Positions 12,902 to 31,894 of a DNA stretch of 37,969 nt are shown here, piece by piece. Source of the stretch: a virus; IMG/VR virus record IMGVR_UViG_3300028854_000032, positions 1 to 37,969 of that record, one strand, 5' to 3'. Every line of letters begins with the position of its first letter. The first letter of the stretch is position 1. A program made the translations under genes and the position numbers. Under the pieces are notes generated by a model that was given only the letters and a program-made list of their open reading frames with translations, was not told where the DNA came from and did no database searches.

Positions 12902-13981
12902 TTATAACTGGAATGGTGTAACTTCCACTTTAACTAAACTGATATTATCACCTACTTGAAAACCATACGTTATAAAATTTTTACTATTTCTTACCCTTAG
13001 TAAGTTAACTGAAGTTGAGCTAATTGAAGGATATGATAGTGGGCCAACAACAACATTTGATACATCAAACGTATCAGTGTTCATACTATACGCTGTAATT
13101 GATGGATAAAATACATTATAAGAGCTAATTTGATATGTATAAGTTAAATCATAATTTCTCGGATCGTTTACATCACTTGGAAATTCCCCATTATATGTAA
13201 AAATAGATGTTGGTGCTGAATATCTACTTACTGTTTGAACTCCACTACCATCACCAATATTCCAATCAATTCTATCAAGGGGATAACTCCCACATAAAGT
13301 TTCATAAGGTGAAATAGTAACCGTTAAAGGGGTTTGTCCATAGCTATTACCAACAGTTTTAAGAATTGCCACTGGTAAAACTTCATCCAATGTAACTATA
13401 CCTGTTTTAATAGTGGATTGAGTTGTGGAGGATATGTAATATCCGCTTAAAACTGTATTATTACAATTAGAGTCTACAATTTTACTATTGCCCCACGTAG
13501 CAGTTTTACTACCTTGAGTGCTTGCATCTTTCCAAGTAAGAAAATTGATGCTAGATGATTGCAAATTACCCCAATACCAATATTGACAATACTTACCAAA
13601 ACAGTTATTAGTGTTTACTGATGTATTTGTTACAGTAGTGGTTGTTTGTATAGTGGAATTTTTATTCTGTGTCAAGGTTACATTATAGGTTCCTGGCATC
13701 ATATATATGTGTGACACTACATCATTTATTGAAGTGGTATATGCCGTGTTAGTAGATTGGTTATAGTAATCACCAAAATCCCAAGTGTATAAAACACTAT
13801 CCATAGAAGTAAGAGTTCCACTGTCTGAAATGTTAGCAAAAACGGCAGATAACGCAGGAGCATGACCGAAGATATACGTAGATGTGCTGTATGCACCAGC
13901 ACTTAATACTGGAAATATACCATTCCATCTAGCATTATTTTTTACGGTAGTTCCAGTTTTTACTATAAAGTCAGTAGTCAT
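12902..13981 (-). CDS. PKD-domain virion protein (359 residues)
   Basis: Two PKD-like domains are visible. The first spans about residues 48-120, with YTWDFGDYY and SHIYMMPGTYNVTLTQ, the WDFGD and HxYxxPGxYxVTL signatures of the family. The second spans about 205-290, with IDWNIGDGSG and later LTYTYQISSYN. Between them lies the Cys/Trp module CFGKYCQYWYWGNL, shared with the 1120-residue protein. PKD domains are Ig-like beta sandwiches used as spacers or adhesion modules on extracellular proteins and phage fibres. It follows the 309-residue gene by three bases with no promoter element of its own, so the two are co-transcribed. Confidence 0.65.
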   Translation of the reverse strand: MTTDFIVKTGTTVKNNARWNGIFPVLSAGAYSTSTYIFGHAPALSAVFANISDSGTLTSMDSVLYTWDFGDYYNQSTNTAYTTSINDVVSHIYMMPGTYNVTLTQNKNSTIQTTTTVTNTSVNTNNCFGKYCQYWYWGNLQSSSINFLTWKDASTQGSKTATWGNSKIVDSNCNNTVLSGYYISSTTQSTIKTGIVTLDEVLPVAILKTVGNSYGQTPLTVTISPYETLCGSYPLDRIDWNIGDGSGVQTVSRYSAPTSIFTYNGEFPSDVNDPRNYDLTYTYQISSYNVFYPSITAYSMNTDTFDVSNVVVGPLSYPSISSTSVNLLRVRNSKNFITYGFQVGDNISLVKVEVTPFQL

Positions 13982-20492: not shown

Positions 20493-23486
20493 CTAACCCA
20501 ATAGATTTTTAGTCAATATATAGTTGAAAATAGTTTCAATAATACCATCGTCAACATACCAATCGGATGATAGAGTTTTATCAAGGGTGGTATATACACT
20601 ATTCCAATCGATCATGTTATTAATCAGTGTATCCGTTCCACTTAATGGTTCTCCCCACAATCTCTGCCTTGAAATAGAAGCTAAATCCAGCATCCTTTGT
20701 ATTTCATTTGGGAAGTTCACACCATAATTCAAAGCTGGCTGTCCTAATTCTGCTGCAATGGATTTCAAGGCATCAATATCGCATGTATCTAAATCTGATA
20801 TATTTGAGGTAAAGTTAGCGATCTTCTCATATGATTCTCTACCAATATCGTCAAAGGTGTTTAATAATTCTGACCCATCTCCAACCACAGCAGGTAAAAA
20901 CACATCAAACAATTCAGCATTATCAGAAAGAATCTCAGGAAATGCTAGGGATTTCATATATCCCGCCATATTAAAACTATCATTAATCTTTCGAACACTG
21001 TATGCATCAGTATAATCGTATATGTTAAAAGGAACTGATATACCCGAAACATTAACTGCTGATAAAGCATCTTGTGCATATTTTTGATACCAAACATTAC
21101 CAGTCCAATCACCAGTAGCTGCTGCTGATTTAATGTAATTTGATGATGTAGATGTAATAAATGTATTTGTATTATCAATAAAATAATCTACGTTTGGTCT
21201 GCGTTTTACGTTTATAATCTTAGCGATAGTATAGTCAAATGCAGGATCAGCATTGAAAACGTGAGCATTGTTTGTAACACTATCAATAACCCAAACTCTG
21301 TTATAAACGTCAACAGCTATCCCTCCTAACTCTTCGTCCAGTTGTCCATTGTTATCTGCCTCAGTATATGTTGAGGATAAAGTTATAAACCTAGGGGATT
21401 GATCTGTTGTATCAGAAGGTAATCTAGAAAACGACCACGCTGATGTATTACCTGTAACTCTATCAATATATCCAAAACTTCTTATTCCGCAAGTAAACCA
21501 TACATTATTATTTCTATCCAATGCAATATATGCTGGCCTATCGAACCCCGAAACTGAACTTAAAAGTTTGCCAGTAGTTCCATCATATTTTTCAATTAAT
21601 CCATATGAATATGTAGTGTTAAATTCTTCAGTTACCCATACATTATTTTGTTTATCTATAACAATATTAACTGGAACTGCACTTATAGATATTGGCAGTG
21701 TGGATAGTAAAATTCCTGTTGAAGAATATTTAAATACATTACTAGATAGAGGATTACAGTAAGTAACCCACGCATCACCATTTCTATCAGTTTCTACTAC
21801 TGGTGGCTTTGATAAGTAATCCCCTTCATTTATAGAAATTTCCAATGGAGTTATCGCAAACAACAAGTTAAAGTTAGTATCAAATTTCAATACTGATAAA
21901 CTATTATATAAGGACACCCAAAAATTAAAGTTTTTATCCATACTAACATAAGATGGAGTAACGCCTGAAACCTCTGGATGAGAATTTCCAAGTAATGCAG
22001 AAAAATCCAAAGTGCTTAATATAACTCCATCTGTGGATATCTTAAATAATTTATCTTGTTCACCGTCAGTTGCCAAAACACTAAAATCTCTTGGATCAAC
22101 TGCTAAACCGTAGATGCCAGAAAACCCCGAAAGAGCATAATTCGTAGTATCAGTGTTTTGTGACACGGGAACATAATATCTATCAACACTTCCTTCAATT
22201 AAAATTCCATTGTCTCGATAATATTCGACAACTGCATTAGTGCTTCCAATCAACTGTGGTGTGTAAATAATCTTACTAATACATCCCACATCTGGAGCAG
22301 GAATATATACAAATTGGTTTGGAGCATACTGCAAAGGATATTGAAAGCTGTTATCATCAGCAGTTATTGAATTATATACTGTTGTAGTAGCGTATAAAGC
22401 AACCTCTGTCATAGCACTTGCTGTTGTTATAGACGTAAACTTGTAACCTCCGCTTCTAAATCCTTGATTATCTGTCGTAATAAAATATAAAGGATAGTCA
22501 TCTGCACTAATTGACATTATACCAGTTGCAGAGGATAAACTCAATGTTATTTGAGTAGTTAACCCTTGATCATTCGATTGTGGGTATTCGAAAACTATAC
22601 CACTTGAATAACTTGTATCACCAGTGAAAATATATTGTCTTCCATATCCATGTAATGTTATCATTGCAGGTATCTTTACATCTGTCCACTTACTAGGGTA
22701 AATATCGTCTATATAGTTCCCTGTAATCTTCATGAAATTAGGAAACATATCATTAACTTGCCAAGTGGTAGCTGCTCTTGCTACTTTACTGTTTGAAAAA
22801 CTCATATATGAATAATATGGTGCATCAAGTTTATCAACGAATCCTACTGTGCTTAATGTTGCAGCAAGTAATAAAGGAGCATTTTCTGTCAATATACCAC
22901 TTCCAATATCGTCAATGAAATAAAACGATCCAGCAGCAGATACACCAACTTGAACGTTGTTTAAGTATATTGGACTAGCACTTAACACTAAGGAATCTAT
23001 AATATTTGAACCATCTGAGTTTAAACAGAATCTCCAAGTTGGAGTTAAAAAACTCCATTTTGGATCAACTTGACTTTGAGGTATAGATTTAGAGTTAGCA
23101 GCATATAACTGAACGTTCAAGGTATCAACTATCTGAGAACTTTGAACCGTTATGTTAAACGGAACGTCTGGTGGTAATCCTGCTAAACTATATACTTTAG
23201 GTATCTGAGTAAAGTTCACATAATCCTGAACATATGACGTTGCGGTTACTGGTAAAGAATACGTATAAATATTATTGGAAGAATCATACACCTGCAACCC
23301 CACGGTATATATCCCAGGGTATTGATACGTATGAGATACCTCATTTACATTATAAACATATCCCCCATCTCCAAAATTCCAAACCTTCTTAACAATATTA
23401 TCCCCAACAGAATTATCTACAAAATCAAAAGATGTATAGTAGATGTATCCGTTATTGTTATTAACGTTGAAGTTGGCAGTTACCAT
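20493..23486 (-). CDS. Baseplate wedge protein with PKD, propeller and tail-protein-I-like parts (997 residues)
   Basis: Three recognisable regions. Residues ~1-85 form a PKD-like domain (WNFGDGG, then SHTYQYPGIYTVGLQVYD). Residues ~440-720 are NHL/Vgb-like propeller blades, each with a pattern such as IALDRNNNVWFT or IVIDKQNNVWVTEE. The last ~140 residues resemble the P2 gpI / T4 gp7-type wedge protein: FLPAVVGDG, a helix, CDIDALKSIAAELGQP, NEIQRMLDLASISRQRLWG. In contractile systems the order gp25 - gp6(J) - gpI is conserved, and this gene is third after gp25- and gp6-like genes with a 5-base gap, which supports the call. The adhesion-type domains fused ahead of a wedge domain are unusual. 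Confidence 0.65.
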   Translation of the reverse strand: MVTANFNVNNNNGYIYYTSFDFVDNSVGDNIVKKVWNFGDGGYVYNVNEVSHTYQYPGIYTVGLQVYDSSNNIYTYSLPVTATSYVQDYVNFTQIPKVYSLAGLPPDVPFNITVQSSQIVDTLNVQLYAANSKSIPQSQVDPKWSFLTPTWRFCLNSDGSNIIDSLVLSASPIYLNNVQVGVSAAGSFYFIDDIGSGILTENAPLLLAATLSTVGFVDKLDAPYYSYMSFSNSKVARAATTWQVNDMFPNFMKITGNYIDDIYPSKWTDVKIPAMITLHGYGRQYIFTGDTSYSSGIVFEYPQSNDQGLTTQITLSLSSATGIMSISADDYPLYFITTDNQGFRSGGYKFTSITTASAMTEVALYATTTVYNSITADDNSFQYPLQYAPNQFVYIPAPDVGCISKIIYTPQLIGSTNAVVEYYRDNGILIEGSVDRYYVPVSQNTDTTNYALSGFSGIYGLAVDPRDFSVLATDGEQDKLFKISTDGVILSTLDFSALLGNSHPEVSGVTPSYVSMDKNFNFWVSLYNSLSVLKFDTNFNLLFAITPLEISINEGDYLSKPPVVETDRNGDAWVTYCNPLSSNVFKYSSTGILLSTLPISISAVPVNIVIDKQNNVWVTEEFNTTYSYGLIEKYDGTTGKLLSSVSGFDRPAYIALDRNNNVWFTCGIRSFGYIDRVTGNTSAWSFSRLPSDTTDQSPRFITLSSTYTEADNNGQLDEELGGIAVDVYNRVWVIDSVTNNAHVFNADPAFDYTIAKIINVKRRPNVDYFIDNTNTFITSTSSNYIKSAAATGDWTGNVWYQKYAQDALSAVNVSGISVPFNIYDYTDAYSVRKINDSFNMAGYMKSLAFPEILSDNAELFDVFLPAVVGDGSELLNTFDDIGRESYEKIANFTSNISDLDTCDIDALKSIAAELGQPALNYGVNFPNEIQRMLDLASISRQRLWGEPLSGTDTLINNMIDWNSVYTTLDKTLSSDWYVDDGIIETIFNYILTKNLLG

Positions 23487-26516: not shown

Positions 26517-29500
26517 ATGTCAATTGAAACTAATTTATTCGAGGATGCCTTTTCTCAGGAAGTATGGCAAACAACTTACAAAGACCACAACGACGAAACC
26601 TTATCAGATACATTTAAGAGAGTTGCTACCGCAATAGCATCCGTCGAAGCAACACAAGAACTTAAAGAGGAGTGGAATGAAAAGTTCTATGACATGCTTA
26701 ACGAATTCAAAATTACTGTAGGTGGACGTATATACTCCAATGCTGGCACAGAATTCACTGGCACAACTTTAGCAAATTGCTTTCTAGGTGTAAAGCCTAA
26801 ACACGATCAAGACTCGTTGGATGGCATTTTAGAGGTATTACGAGCACAAGCAAAGACCCTTAAGAGTGAAGGTGGTTGGGGTATGAATTTCTCATTCATT
26901 CGTCCTCGTGGGTCTTTCATTTACGGTATCGGGGTGGAAACTCCCGGAGCGGTGAAATACATGGAGTTGTTTGATAAATCCTCTGATATTATCACTGCTG
27001 GATCGGGATTAAAATCTAAAAATAAAAAAGCTAAAGGCAAAATTCGTAAGGGTGCTATGATGGGGGTTTTGTCAGTTTGGCATGGTGATATTGAAGAGTT
27101 TATTGAGGCTAAACTGTCAGAAGGTAGATTAACTAAATTCAACCTTTCAGTTAACTGCACCGATGAATTCATGGGTAAAGTAGTTGCTATTAAGGAATTA
27201 CAAAAACAAAATCTTGAAATACCTGAAGATTTAAACCGTTGGGATTTATTATTTCCTGATACTCAGCACCATGCATATAAAAAAGAATGGAATGGTAATA
27301 TACAACATTGGAAAGAAAAAGGTTATCCCACCACTATAATTCGAACCATTAAAGTTACAGATTTGTGGGACAAAATAATCAAGTCTACATATACTAGAAA
27401 CGATCCTGGTGTTTTATTTTGTGATATCGCTAACAGAACACATTGCTGGAATTATGGAGAAAACTCAGATATTCAAGCTACTAATCCCTGCTTTCATGAA
27501 GACTCGTTAATAGCAGTTGCAGATGGACGAAACGCTGTATCCATAAAACAATTAGCCGATGAAGGAAAAGATGTTCCAGTATATACAGAAAATCCTCAAA
27601 CTGGTAAAGTTGAAATTAAATGGGGCAGAAATCCACGAGTAACTGGATATAATCAAGAATTATTAGAAGTTTCATTTGGAGACGGAACTAGTATTAAGGT
27701 TACTCCTAATCATAAGTTTCTATTGATGGATGGAACTGAAAAAGAAGCAAAGAATTTAATAAAAGGGGATTCTATACCTAGTTTCATAAAAAGAACCGAG
27801 GTAATATCAAAGAAAAATAGAAAACCATATTATAGAATTGATTGTGACGTATATAACCATAAAAAAGATCAAATATTTGAACATAGGTTAATATCAAAAT
27901 TTCATCATCCTGAAAAATGGAATAATTTATACAACGAAAGTAAAAAAGATGGATGGATTAAAGGTGGGGTAGTAGTTCATCATAAAGATTATAATGGATT
28001 AAACAATTCTATAGACAATCTTGAAATCATGTCGTTTAAGGATCATAATATATTTCATGCCTCTCATGATTTCTCTGGAACGAAAAATCCAATGTATGGA
28101 AAGTCTCATTCATCTAAAACTAAAAAGAAAATAGGCAAAAAAACGTTAGATAGAAATAAGGATGAAGGTTATAAAGAAAAATGGAAAACTGCACTATTAA
28201 ATTCTCATACAAGAGAAACTAACGAAAAAATATCTAAAAGAAGGACTTCTTATGAATTAAATAGAAGATTAGAAATAGCAAAAGAAACTGGGTTAAACAC
28301 TTTCACAATAAATGGTGAGTTGATGGTAGAAAAAATTTGCGAATATACTAACACTAAATTTATAGTTCCTTGGGTAAAACGTGAAATATGTTTAAATCCA
28401 TCAATAAACCCTATGTATATTTTAGAATTAAAGGAAAAATGCATAGCTAACGCTAGAACAGTATTTGACGATAAATCTAAAATAAACTTACATAACCAAA
28501 TAATGATATTTAAAGATTTACAAGAATCTTTAAATAGAAATCCATTAAAAAAGGAGTGGGAAAACGAATGTAAGAAAAAAAACATACATATACGTTTTAA
28601 TACTGAAACTAAGAACCCGTATATATTATCTGGATATAAAGAACTTCAAGATAAATCTGTAAATTATAACCATCGCGTAACGGGAGTAAAAAAACTTGAT
28701 GGATTACATACAGTATACAATATAACCACAGAAGATAACCACACAGTAGGAATAATAAACGATATTTTATCTAACGGTTTTAATGGAATATTTACTCCGC
28801 AATGTGGGGAACAAATGCTTCCTTTCGGTGGTATTTGTAATCTTGCTTCCGTCAACCTAACTCAGTTCATTAACAAAGATAGGACAGATTTTGACTACAC
28901 TAAGTTACAGAAGTATATTACAGTCTTAACTAGATTTTCTGATAACGTCAACGATTATAGTAATGCACCTTTACCAGAATATGTCGAGTCTATGAGAAAT
29001 AGAAGACGTATCGGGATTGGAGTATCGGGATGGGGGTCTGCATTATATCTCCTCAAAATTAAATTCGCTAGTGATAAGGCAGAACAACTTAAAGCAAAAT
29101 TGATGAAGAAGTTTACTCACACTGTAGTAAAAACTTCTATTGAATTAGCAAAGGAAAAAGGAATGTTTAAGGAGTGCGATCCAATTAAACATAGTAAAGC
29201 ATTTTTCTTTAAACAAATTGGCTTACCTCAAGACCTCATCGATGATATTGCAAAATATGGAATTAGAAACTCTGCACTGTTCTCGATTCAGCCAACTGGA
29301 AACACATCAATCCTTGCAAACATTATTTCTGGTGGATTGGAACCACTATTTTTGCATGAGTATATTAGAACTGTCATCGTAAATACATGTCCAGATGATA
29401 TTAAAGAACTTGCTCCGAAATATTGGGAAGGAGAGTTTAAAGAAACTGAACACTTCAAATTACATAAGGAAGGAACCGACGATATTTTAAAGTATACACA

Positions 29501-30368
29501 TACTGATGGAACTGTTTATAAGATTGATCGTAACCGTGGACTTACAAAAGAAGTTCTATGTGAAGATTATGCAGTTCGACATCTTAAGAAAGCTAATGAA
29601 TGGGATGCAGCAGCAGATTATGCTGTGACAACAATGACATTATCTGTTAATGATCACATTAAAGACATGGCTGGTTGGGGTAAATGGATCGATTCTTCAA
29701 TGTCCAAGACAATTAATGTTCCAAACGATTATCCTTTTGAAGACTTTGAAGATTTATACCTCGACACCTACAAAACAGGATATTTAAAGGGTATTACAAC
29801 GTATAGAGCAGGAACAATGACAAATGTTCTTGCTAAAGCTGACTATAAGGCAGAACCAGTATGTAAAACATGCAAACGTTCAAAAGATTTATTGGGAGAT
29901 ATCTATCACACTAAAGCAAAAGGCGTTGATTATTTTGTAATCGTTGGATTGGATGCCAACAACGAACCATACGAAATCTTTGCAGGACAAAATGGATTCT
30001 TCTCTAAAATTTTAGAGAAGGGAATCATCCATAAAGTAAAACGAGGTCATTATCAACTCCTTGGAGAAGAAGAAGTAGTAGTCGATTCTATTACAAGTCA
30101 TTTAGAAGAGGATGAAGAGGCTTTAACTAGAATGATAAGCATGAGTTTAAGACATGGAGTAGATTTAAACTATATAGTGCATCAATTAGAAAAGGTTAAA
30201 GGTGCATTAAACAGCCTATCTAAATGTATGGCAAGATGTTTAAAAAAGTATATTAAAGATGGAGAAAAAATATCAGGAGAAGAATGCCCTAGCTGCGGTA
30301 AAGAAACTCTTATTAGGGCAGAAGGTTGCAAGAAATGTATCAACTGCTCAATGAGCGTTTGTGGTTAA
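26517..30368 (+). CDS. nrdJ: Class II (adenosylcobalamin-dependent) ribonucleotide reductase with intein
   Basis: A 1283-residue precursor; the extein parts total 845 residues. The enzyme reduces ribonucleotides to deoxyribonucleotides using a B12 radical. Class II features: NCF at 87-89 with redox C88; KGAMMGVLSVWHGDIEEFI (178-196); the active site N323-P324 | C763-G-E765, with the radical cysteine C763 exactly at the splice junction; the redox partner C774, 11 residues on, as in Lactobacillus NrdJ; the PTGNTS phosphate-binding segment; and a C-terminal Cys cluster (C1257, C1260, C1271, C1274, C1277, C1282). No B2-type subunit gene is in the window, which fits class II. The gene has its own sigma70-like promoter. 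Its stop shares TTAA with the convergent RCC1 gene's stop. Activity depends on intein removal. Confidence 0.88.
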   Translation: MSIETNLFEDAFSQEVWQTTYKDHNDETLSDTFKRVATAIASVEATQELKEEWNEKFYDMLNEFKITVGGRIYSNAGTEFTGTTLANCFLGVKPKHDQDSLDGILEVLRAQAKTLKSEGGWGMNFSFIRPRGSFIYGIGVETPGAVKYMELFDKSSDIITAGSGLKSKNKKAKGKIRKGAMMGVLSVWHGDIEEFIEAKLSEGRLTKFNLSVNCTDEFMGKVVAIKELQKQNLEIPEDLNRWDLLFPDTQHHAYKKEWNGNIQHWKEKGYPTTIIRTIKVTDLWDKIIKSTYTRNDPGVLFCDIANRTHCWNYGENSDIQATNPCFHEDSLIAVADGRNAVSIKQLADEGKDVPVYTENPQTGKVEIKWGRNPRVTGYNQELLEVSFGDGTSIKVTPNHKFLLMDGTEKEAKNLIKGDSIPSFIKRTEVISKKNRKPYYRIDCDVYNHKKDQIFEHRLISKFHHPEKWNNLYNESKKDGWIKGGVVVHHKDYNGLNNSIDNLEIMSFKDHNIFHASHDFSGTKNPMYGKSHSSKTKKKIGKKTLDRNKDEGYKEKWKTALLNSHTRETNEKISKRRTSYELNRRLEIAKETGLNTFTINGELMVEKICEYTNTKFIVPWVKREICLNPSINPMYILELKEKCIANARTVFDDKSKINLHNQIMIFKDLQESLNRNPLKKEWENECKKKNIHIRFNTETKNPYILSGYKELQDKSVNYNHRVTGVKKLDGLHTVYNITTEDNHTVGIINDILSNGFNGIFTPQCGEQMLPFGGICNLASVNLTQFINKDRTDFDYTKLQKYITVLTRFSDNVNDYSNAPLPEYVESMRNRRRIGIGVSGWGSALYLLKIKFASDKAEQLKAKLMKKFTHTVVKTSIELAKEKGMFKECDPIKHSKAFFFKQIGLPQDLIDDIAKYGIRNSALFSIQPTGNTSILANIISGGLEPLFLHEYIRTVIVNTCPDDIKELAPKYWEGEFKETEHFKLHKEGTDDILKYTHTDGTVYKIDRNRGLTKEVLCEDYAVRHLKKANEWDAAADYAVTTMTLSVNDHIKDMAGWGKWIDSSMSKTINVPNDYPFEDFEDLYLDTYKTGYLKGITTYRAGTMTNVLAKADYKAEPVCKTCKRSKDLLGDIYHTKAKGVDYFVIVGLDANNEPYEIFAGQNGFFSKILEKGIIHKVKRGHYQLLGEEEVVVDSITSHLEEDEEALTRMISMSLRHGVDLNYIVHQLEKVKGALNSLSKCMARCLKKYIKDGEKISGEECPSCGKETLIRAEGCKKCINCSMSVCG
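27978..28046 (+). other. HNH nuclease motif inside the intein
   Basis: Precursor residues 488-510 read HHKDYNGLNNSIDNLEI followed by a final His (H510), the HNH_3-type homing nuclease core. The preceding segment FEHRLISKFHHPE (454-466) also fits that family. No LAGLIDADG motif is seen. Confidence 0.8.
28077..28136 (+). other. NUMOD3-like DNA-binding motif inside the intein
   Basis: Precursor residues 521-540 include KNPMYGKSHSSKTKKKIG, matching the NUMOD3 pattern (NPMYGK ... S.et.kKi) that gives HNH and GIY-YIG homing nucleases sequence-specific DNA contacts. Confidence 0.75.
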
Positions 30369-31894
30369 TAGAAATTCTTAGCAACTGGAATATGTTGCCA
30401 GCCATCAATATAATCTGACGATACGATACCCCCTTCATTTAGGCCCCATACCCAAACTATACCATTTATATCCCTTACTATCACACCAATAGATTGTTCA
30501 GTATTAGTATAAAAACTTGCCTCTACTACATTATGAACAGGTGCTTTTTCAAATTGATAATAGATTGTAGTATGCGGAGAATCATTTGTAAATAAAGAAG
30601 GTGATGTAAACACATACGACCCCGCTAAAAACAGCTTATTATCAACAGAAATTAAACCAATTGCTCCAACATTTGGAGTGTCTGCCCCAATAATATCGTT
30701 AATATTTGGTAATGAAGCGGTTGTAGTTGGGGTTTGTCGGTATGTCGTTATATTAGTAGGAACCTTTAAATTAGCTACAACTCCACTACCCGTAGCACCA
30801 TATCCTGAATACCCCCAAGTATATACATTACCACTGGTATCCAATGCAGCTATAGTTGTCACACTACCAAATCCAGCAGTTACTATTTTTTTAATATTAG
30901 TTAAAGTTCCCACTCTAATAAAATAACTGGAATTTGTATATGACCCCGTGCCTAAATTTGATGACCCATTCCATCCCGCGCCCCATACTGTTCCGTCACT
31001 TTTTATAACGTAACGTGTCCATCCCATTGCATAACATCCAGTTTTCTGAAGTGATGCTACACCAGTAAGATATGTAACAGCATCTTGCTTGCATTGAGTA
31101 AAAACGTGCTTATCTACAGTATCTCCTACTCCTAATTGCCCTAATCCGTTATATCCTGCTGCATACACTGTTCCATCTGTCATCAATAACATTATATTTG
31201 CTCCATTAGATGCTGCCCCACCACCAACAGATACTTGAGAAATAGTCTTACCAGCTATTGATACTGCTACTGGATGATTGACGCTAACTGTTGATCCGCT
31301 ACCATTTTCACCCCACGCATTATATCCCCACGCATAACAACTATTATCAGTGCATAATACACAAATGTCTACCCATCCATTACCATCTCCCGAAACGTCA
31401 AAATCACTCACAGATTTATTAGAAAACATGATATTCAACTGAAGTAAAATATCTTCACTTCGAGGGCCACTAGCGATATATATATTCTGCCAATAATTTG
31501 CAGAACCCATCCCCCAAAAACTTCCATCACTCAACAAAATAAAAGTGTTGTCAACGGCTTCAAAAACTTTAGTAATGGTGACGGATGAATGTTCCAATAA
31601 ATAATTATCTAAAAATCTCGATCTAGAAATTTCGCTTTGGTATGCTCCACTATTAAAATGCCCCCATTTATAATGGGCGTTTTGTGTATAATACCCTGCA
31701 TTTGCATTTGATGGGCCTTGTATACCTAATCCAATAGCTGGCTCCGATACGTTTACAGTAGTATTACTATTACTGGCAACTATAGAACTTAAAGAGTAAA
31801 TTAAAGTATCAAAAAGACTGAAATCGTAATTAATGGTGGATAAGGATGTCCCTATACACTCATTTGAATTGATGGTTATTGTTGAATAGTGCAT
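30365..31894 (-). CDS. Fibre protein with RCC1-like beta propeller (509 residues)
   Basis: The N-terminal ~40 residues carry the module shared with the three fibre genes at 4380-6076 (here NECIGTSLSTINYDFS then LFDT). From ~110 to the end the protein is built of RCC1-type blades, recognisable by VYAAGYNGLGQLGVGD (243-258), YAWGYNAWGENGSG (187-200), VWGAGWNGSSNLGTG (303-317), VYTWGYSGYGATGSG (357-371) and VWVWGLNEGG (480-489). About seven blades fit, a complete propeller. RCC1 propellers mediate protein binding in other contexts; on a phage fibre this is plausibly a receptor-binding head. It converges on nrdJ, and its promoter element overlaps the end of the small terminase gene. Confidence 0.75.
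   Translation of the reverse strand: MHYSTITINSNECIGTSLSTINYDFSLFDTLIYSLSSIVASNSNTTVNVSEPAIGLGIQGPSNANAGYYTQNAHYKWGHFNSGAYQSEISRSRFLDNYLLEHSSVTITKVFEAVDNTFILLSDGSFWGMGSANYWQNIYIASGPRSEDILLQLNIMFSNKSVSDFDVSGDGNGWVDICVLCTDNSCYAWGYNAWGENGSGSTVSVNHPVAVSIAGKTISQVSVGGGAASNGANIMLLMTDGTVYAAGYNGLGQLGVGDTVDKHVFTQCKQDAVTYLTGVASLQKTGCYAMGWTRYVIKSDGTVWGAGWNGSSNLGTGSYTNSSYFIRVGTLTNIKKIVTAGFGSVTTIAALDTSGNVYTWGYSGYGATGSGVVANLKVPTNITTYRQTPTTTASLPNINDIIGADTPNVGAIGLISVDNKLFLAGSYVFTSPSLFTNDSPHTTIYYQFEKAPVHNVVEASFYTNTEQSIGVIVRDINGIVWVWGLNEGGIVSSDYIDGWQHIPVAKNFY

Follow-up and report, generated by a model that had tools for sequence, protein, structure and literature searches.

A glutamine-terminated intein at the radical cysteine of a phage class II ribonucleotide reductase, from a family that appears to have switched repeatedly between Asn and Gln

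The nrdJ gene in the window (the whole stretch of 37,969 nucleotides analysed here) carries an intein of 438 aa that ends in Pro-Gln and lies exactly at the radical cysteine. We believe that it is very probably an active (functional), mobile class 1 intein of phage ribonucleotide reductase (RNR) that uses Gln cyclisation; its chemistry, splicing and nuclease activity are what we infer from the sequence. What appears to be unusual is the family and not one ending, because the family, judged from its sequences and tree, is marked by repeated switching between Asn and Gln at a fixed site within a clade that lacks the penultimate His.

Position of the intein in the nrdJ gene

The open reading frame at 26517..30368 (+ strand, as are all features of the gene) encodes a 1283-aa precursor of NrdJ, the class II, B12-dependent RNR. 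It was matched by the NrdJ profile TIGR02504 with 422.5 bits (cut-off 399.95) and by the Pfam domains Ribonuc_red_lgN/lgC and TSCPD. The N-extein (residues 1-324, 26517..27488), which ends in ...ATNP with Pro at -1, and the C-extein (residues 763-1283, 28803..30365), which begins with CGEQ, were delimited by alignment to Thermotoga maritima NrdJ (1xje) and to L009, an uncultured IMG/VR phage that is the nearest relative without an intein. The C-extein contains C774, which matches the active-site cysteine after CGE, and ends in a cysteine-rich C-terminal tail. The intein between them (ORF residues 325-762, C1 to Gln438, 27489..28802) was assigned from profiles, the family alignment, L009 and the HINT fold given by AlphaFold and Foldseek.

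The first-pass annotation had placed the insert between N323-P324 and C763, at the radical cysteine, and both the 1xje alignment and the empty allele of L009 bear this out. The phmmer alignment to T. maritima NrdJ places two query residues, C325 (the first of the intein) and C763 (+1, 28803..28805), on C322, the thiyl-radical cysteine of that enzyme, and the C-extein restarts as CGEQ. The uninterrupted L009 gene reads ATNPCGEQ, and the insert is exactly missing from the close NrdJ relatives L009, L011 and L012. The two junctions lie at N323-P324^C325 and P761-Q762^C763. Since both are fixed by the empty allele, without intein motifs, Pro437-Gln438 (ccg caa, 28797..28802) is the true C-terminal dipeptide, so that the reported Pro-Gln end without a penultimate His was correct. 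No canonical His-Asn-Cys to which the C-terminal splice site could be moved exists elsewhere in the insert, and the site stands.

A colinear intein, 67% identical to that of the window and ending in Phe-Gln, occupies the same place in the IMG/VR NrdJ relatives L006-L008. The extein DNA of L007 (filled) differs from that of L009 (empty) at only 23/987 and 63/1569 bases (2-4%), a similarity so high that the two count as a single phage lineage in which both a filled and an empty allele occur. The presence of both alleles in related phages is consistent with mobility of the intein, as read from the sequences.

Around the gene, a convergent gene for a 509-aa RCC1-repeat protein of the beta-propeller type (30365-31894, - strand; Pfam RCC1 61.6 bits) overlaps the nrdJ stop codon by 4 bases. 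Large PKD-domain proteins are encoded at 12902-13981 and 20493-23486 (-), adjoining a weak match to a T4 gp6-like baseplate protein. No RNA family reached the Rfam threshold in the window, so no known group I intron type was found there.

Splicing domains and predicted fold

Intein profiles matched the insert: TIGR01445 (intein_Nterm) begins at intein residue 1, and Pfam Intein_splicing covers residues 9-418 with an E value of 4e-12. The N-terminal splicing region (27489..27803), defined by TIGR01445 and family conservation, holds block A (CFHEDSLIAVADGRNAV...) and block B (T72-P-N-H75, 27702-27713). An HNH domain lies between the splicing blocks, composed of an HNH homing endonuclease motif (HNH_3, PF13392; 27951..28046) whose 25.0 bits are barely above the cut-off of 24.8, and a NUMOD3 DNA-binding motif (PF07460; 28071..28133) with 29.5 bits against a cut-off of 20.4. 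The C-terminal splicing region (28668..28802), taken from the family alignment, includes NH at residues 394-395, block F (VYNITTEDNH) and block G (GIFTPQ).

The class 1 nucleophiles are both Cys (C325 at position 1 and C763 at +1), and the C-terminal residue, Gln438, is a known variant of the cyclising Asn. The penultimate His, a common but non-defining intein feature, is replaced by Pro437. Blocks A, B and F had been described as intact, and for block F this holds for His418 (F:13, 28740-28742) but not for the usual Asp at F:4, which is Asn411 here (VYNI). The F:4 residue is known to vary among inteins, being Asp, Cys or Trp (PMC4031507), so the block-F Asp is not strictly defining. The Asn-His at residues 394-395 (28668-28673) stands just before block F, and its His is found in 80 of the 87 family members listed. 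This pair may stand in for the lost catalytic His, but some His-Asn members have it as well.

The AlphaFold model, built on a 40-row alignment, had a mean pLDDT of 88.3, rising to 93-98 across the N-terminal splicing region. When the model was searched with Foldseek, 42 PDB chains were matched at E<=0.001, almost all of them inteins, including Ssp DnaB, Mtu RecA, NrdJ-1 and the Gln-ended Pab PolII. The predicted fold of the insert is HINT. A retained NrdJ domain would, like this insert, be in frame and under selection; however, it would part N323 from the radical cysteine, and the predicted HINT fold, the homing endonuclease motifs and the exact lack of the insert in L009, L011 and L012 speak against it. 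The empty allele in L009 contradicts the notion that homologues retain the region as a domain, and we give this reading next to no probability.

The phage intein family

The family was defined by the N-terminal intein motif A[VT]ADGRNAV.I.QL. Counts of the junction pattern itself were too narrow (QCGEQ in 3 contigs, of the L007 type only, and NCGEQ in 8), and the family motif was used instead. A profile scan gave 189 relatives, of which 80 were retrieved for reading; all 80 are in phage RNR at NP^C, with L056 as the sole exception. A DNA-motif scan that required Pro at -1 added further members, and the set came to at least 94 distinct complete inteins at NP^C, or 87 once near copies were removed. 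Because members were chosen for resembling the window intein and, in the DNA-motif scan, for Pro at -1, the residue frequencies given below are not unbiased.

In the 87 non-redundant inteins listed, the terminal residue (G:7) is Asn in 64 and Gln in 23, with none other. In a minority with unusual C-termini the end was set as the first Asn or Gln before C-x-E, which could hide other endings; the inteins read without this restriction still have only Asn or Gln at the terminus. Of the 87, 77 have no penultimate His, and 13 different residues occupy their G:6 position. These 77 have a VYN block F, whereas the other 10 combine a His-Asn end with a VYD block F. Cys1, Thr72 and His75 are invariant across the 87, the block-F His (F:13) is kept in 81, and every NP^C member listed has Pro at -1. 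The family codons for Asn (AAT/AAC) and Gln (CAA/CAG) are two substitutions apart. All Gln-ended family members found come from uncultured phages, and none was seen in a cultured phage among the members found. A search of the genome collection for a cellular source returned two weak archaeal matches only, so none was found.

Some relatives differ in arrangement. The L056 intein (from 4001) is inserted one codon later, after the radical cysteine (NPC^C...LHQ^SEQ), ends in His-Gln and has Ser at +1. The NrdJ gene of L020 (5244-9935, +) carries two inteins, the family one at NP^C and a second one downstream (SKC^VVEGTLIST...VSHN^TINLPN, junctions set by eye). Natural mini-inteins of the same family, 152-174 aa long and without the endonuclease, occur in L004 (6001-6510), L173, L211, L133 and L142, and the host reductase of the L004 mini-intein has another intein upstream.

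Switching of the terminal residue

A tree of the splicing domains, built without the last two intein residues, gave 10 Asn/Gln changes (bootstrap 9-11), of which at least 7 are forced by starred branches. When the tree was rooted on the His-Asn outgroup from cultured phages, the root state was Asn and 11 changes were needed. Separate trees both need similar numbers (11 changes for the N-part and 10 for the C-part), which lends no support to the idea that recombination at the C-terminal end produced the switching. The window intein pairs with L001/L007 at a starred branch, and L063 (Phe-Gln) joins this pair next; L043 and L062 also end in Pro-Gln, yet they are separate from the window intein on the tree.

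The His-Asn members all lie on one side of one branch. The covariation of the block-F Asp with the penultimate His (10 with both, 77 with Asn and non-His) was rejected as a statistical association, because the tree gives one change for each and the covariation counts as a single event. The terminal residue switched between Asn and Gln many times, and we therefore regard the Gln ending as an evolved variant and not as decay. No prior report of family-wide Asn/Gln switching was found in the searchable literature, key subscription papers being outside its scope.

Selection and the rate of splicing

Between the window and L007, the intein gave a pN of 0.21, a pS of 0.74 and a dN/dS of about 0.08-0.1, with a pN of 0.145 in the N-splice part and a dN/dS of 0.13 in the C-splice part; the dN/dS values are rough because dS is close to saturation. 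The exteins are comparable (pN 0.125-0.14, pS 0.73-0.79). These substitution patterns show clear constraint, by purifying selection, on the nuclease region as well as on the two splicing parts.

The change of two textbook catalytic positions could be read as decay, with Gln and Pro as the earliest defects of a splicing element that is dying out, in a reductase that no longer functions. We consider this very improbable: the 67%-identical relative ends in Gln too, as do at least 23 non-redundant members; the intein and the exteins are under purifying selection; the ORF, the HNH and the block B residues are intact; and no nonsense or frameshift copies were seen in L001-L008.

Previous work indicates that Gln-ended inteins follow the class 1 route with Gln cyclisation (PMC4031507). 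The earlier statement that Gln can cyclise in known cases is borne out by the RNR intein of Chilo iridescent virus and by archaeal Pol II inteins, which splice with Gln (PMC4031507). The native Gln serves splicing of the Chilo intein better than Asn does, while Gln makes the Pab and Mma Pol II inteins splice slowly; about 5% of functional inteins have no His at the penultimate position (G:6) (PMC4031507). As Gln acts in both directions, the rate of splicing is not inferable from the residue, and the Pro-Gln end neither prevents splicing nor predicts that it is slow.

The first-pass annotation had further suggested that Gln together with the lost His makes splicing slow or conditional. In such a scheme the His-less intein with Gln and Pro(-1) would let the precursor persist until a cellular signal switched the reductase on. 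The slowing of the Pab and Mma inteins by Gln and the fact that Asn cyclisation is usually rate-limiting (PMC4031507) could favour it, as could the finding that Pro at -1 is incompatible with efficient NrdJ-1 splicing and hinders the first step (PMC13123727), and the separation of catalytic residues by the insert. In the other direction, no regulatory element turned up, nor a sensor cysteine pair or a conserved switch residue; the Chilo intein is improved by Gln (PMC4031507); and close relatives have now Asn, now Gln at the same site, which speaks against a conserved role in setting the rate. We found the suggestion of impaired or conditional splicing unsupported, considering the many His-less members, the restriction of the terminus to Asn and Gln and the purifying selection, and we think conditional splicing unlikely.

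Proposed mechanism and its meaning

For the active class 1 intein that we prefer, Cys1 would attack the Pro(-1) carbonyl in an N-S shift, aided by Thr72/His75 of block B, and Cys763 would take the acyl group as the branch nucleophile. Gln438, assisted by His418 of block F, would then cyclise to a glutarimide instead of a succinimide, and an S-N shift would join NP to CGEQ. Because Asn323 and the radical Cys763 are on opposite sides of the insert, the reductase would be inactive before splicing. The HNH/NUMOD3 domain would copy the intein into empty NPCGE sites.

On the family scale, we propose that the role of the penultimate His was lost once in the lineage, along with the change of the block-F Asp to Asn, and that the terminal residue afterwards moved repeatedly between Asn and Gln, whose amide side chains are able to cyclise. 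Because Pro at -1 is bad for NrdJ-1 (PMC13123727), we infer that the NP^C inteins must have adapted to it. It is possible, though we hold it only tentatively and lean against it, that the family rebuilt the last steps of splicing, so that after the loss of His and Asp, Asn and Gln became interchangeable at the cyclising position, following an N-extein Pro to which tested inteins are poorly suited. If this were true, the family would be a natural Asn/Gln switch series that reads out the determinants of C-terminal cyclisation.

The few Gln-ended inteins known so far have been interpreted as stages that follow a first, damaging mutation. Here, at least 23 non-redundant members end in Gln; all of them lack the penultimate His, and they are interspersed with Asn-ended members at a single, identical site. 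This family lets one ask what permits the use of Gln and how the residue switches across a two-substitution codon gap. Its members are also candidates for inteins tolerant of Pro at -1, which is a limitation in protein-ligation tools.

Comparison with known inteins

Like the window intein, the Chilo iridescent virus RIR1 intein, which also resides in an RNR, and the Pab, Pho and Mma Pol II inteins have a C-terminal Gln for Asn, and their splicing has been demonstrated (PMC4031507, PMC549080, PMC8229266). The Pho Pol II intein keeps the penultimate His (His165-Gln166, PMC8229266), whereas the window intein lacks it. The window intein further differs from these Gln-ended inteins in its block-F Asn for Asp and in the recurrence of Gln among Asn-ended close relatives. 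As the ending changed several times in the family, the shared Gln is no evidence of kinship with the Chilo intein.

The nrdA inteins of Dickeya phage LIMEstone1, Salmonella phage pertopsoe, Synechococcus phage S-CBWM1 and Vibrio phage YC belong to the same ADGR.-type family and occupy the homologous radical-cysteine site, but as NL^C, with Leu at -1. They also differ in their class I NrdA hosts, canonical VYD block F and His-Asn end. The L010 and L013 inteins share the NP^C insertion point in phage NrdJ; however, their C-termini are His-Asn, and neither is closely related to the window intein. NrdJ-1, the ultrafast split intein from a marine metagenome (PDB 8ubs), shares the HINT fold and the NrdJ host and was a Foldseek match to the window intein, but unlike the latter it is split and has Ser at +1 (PMC13123727).
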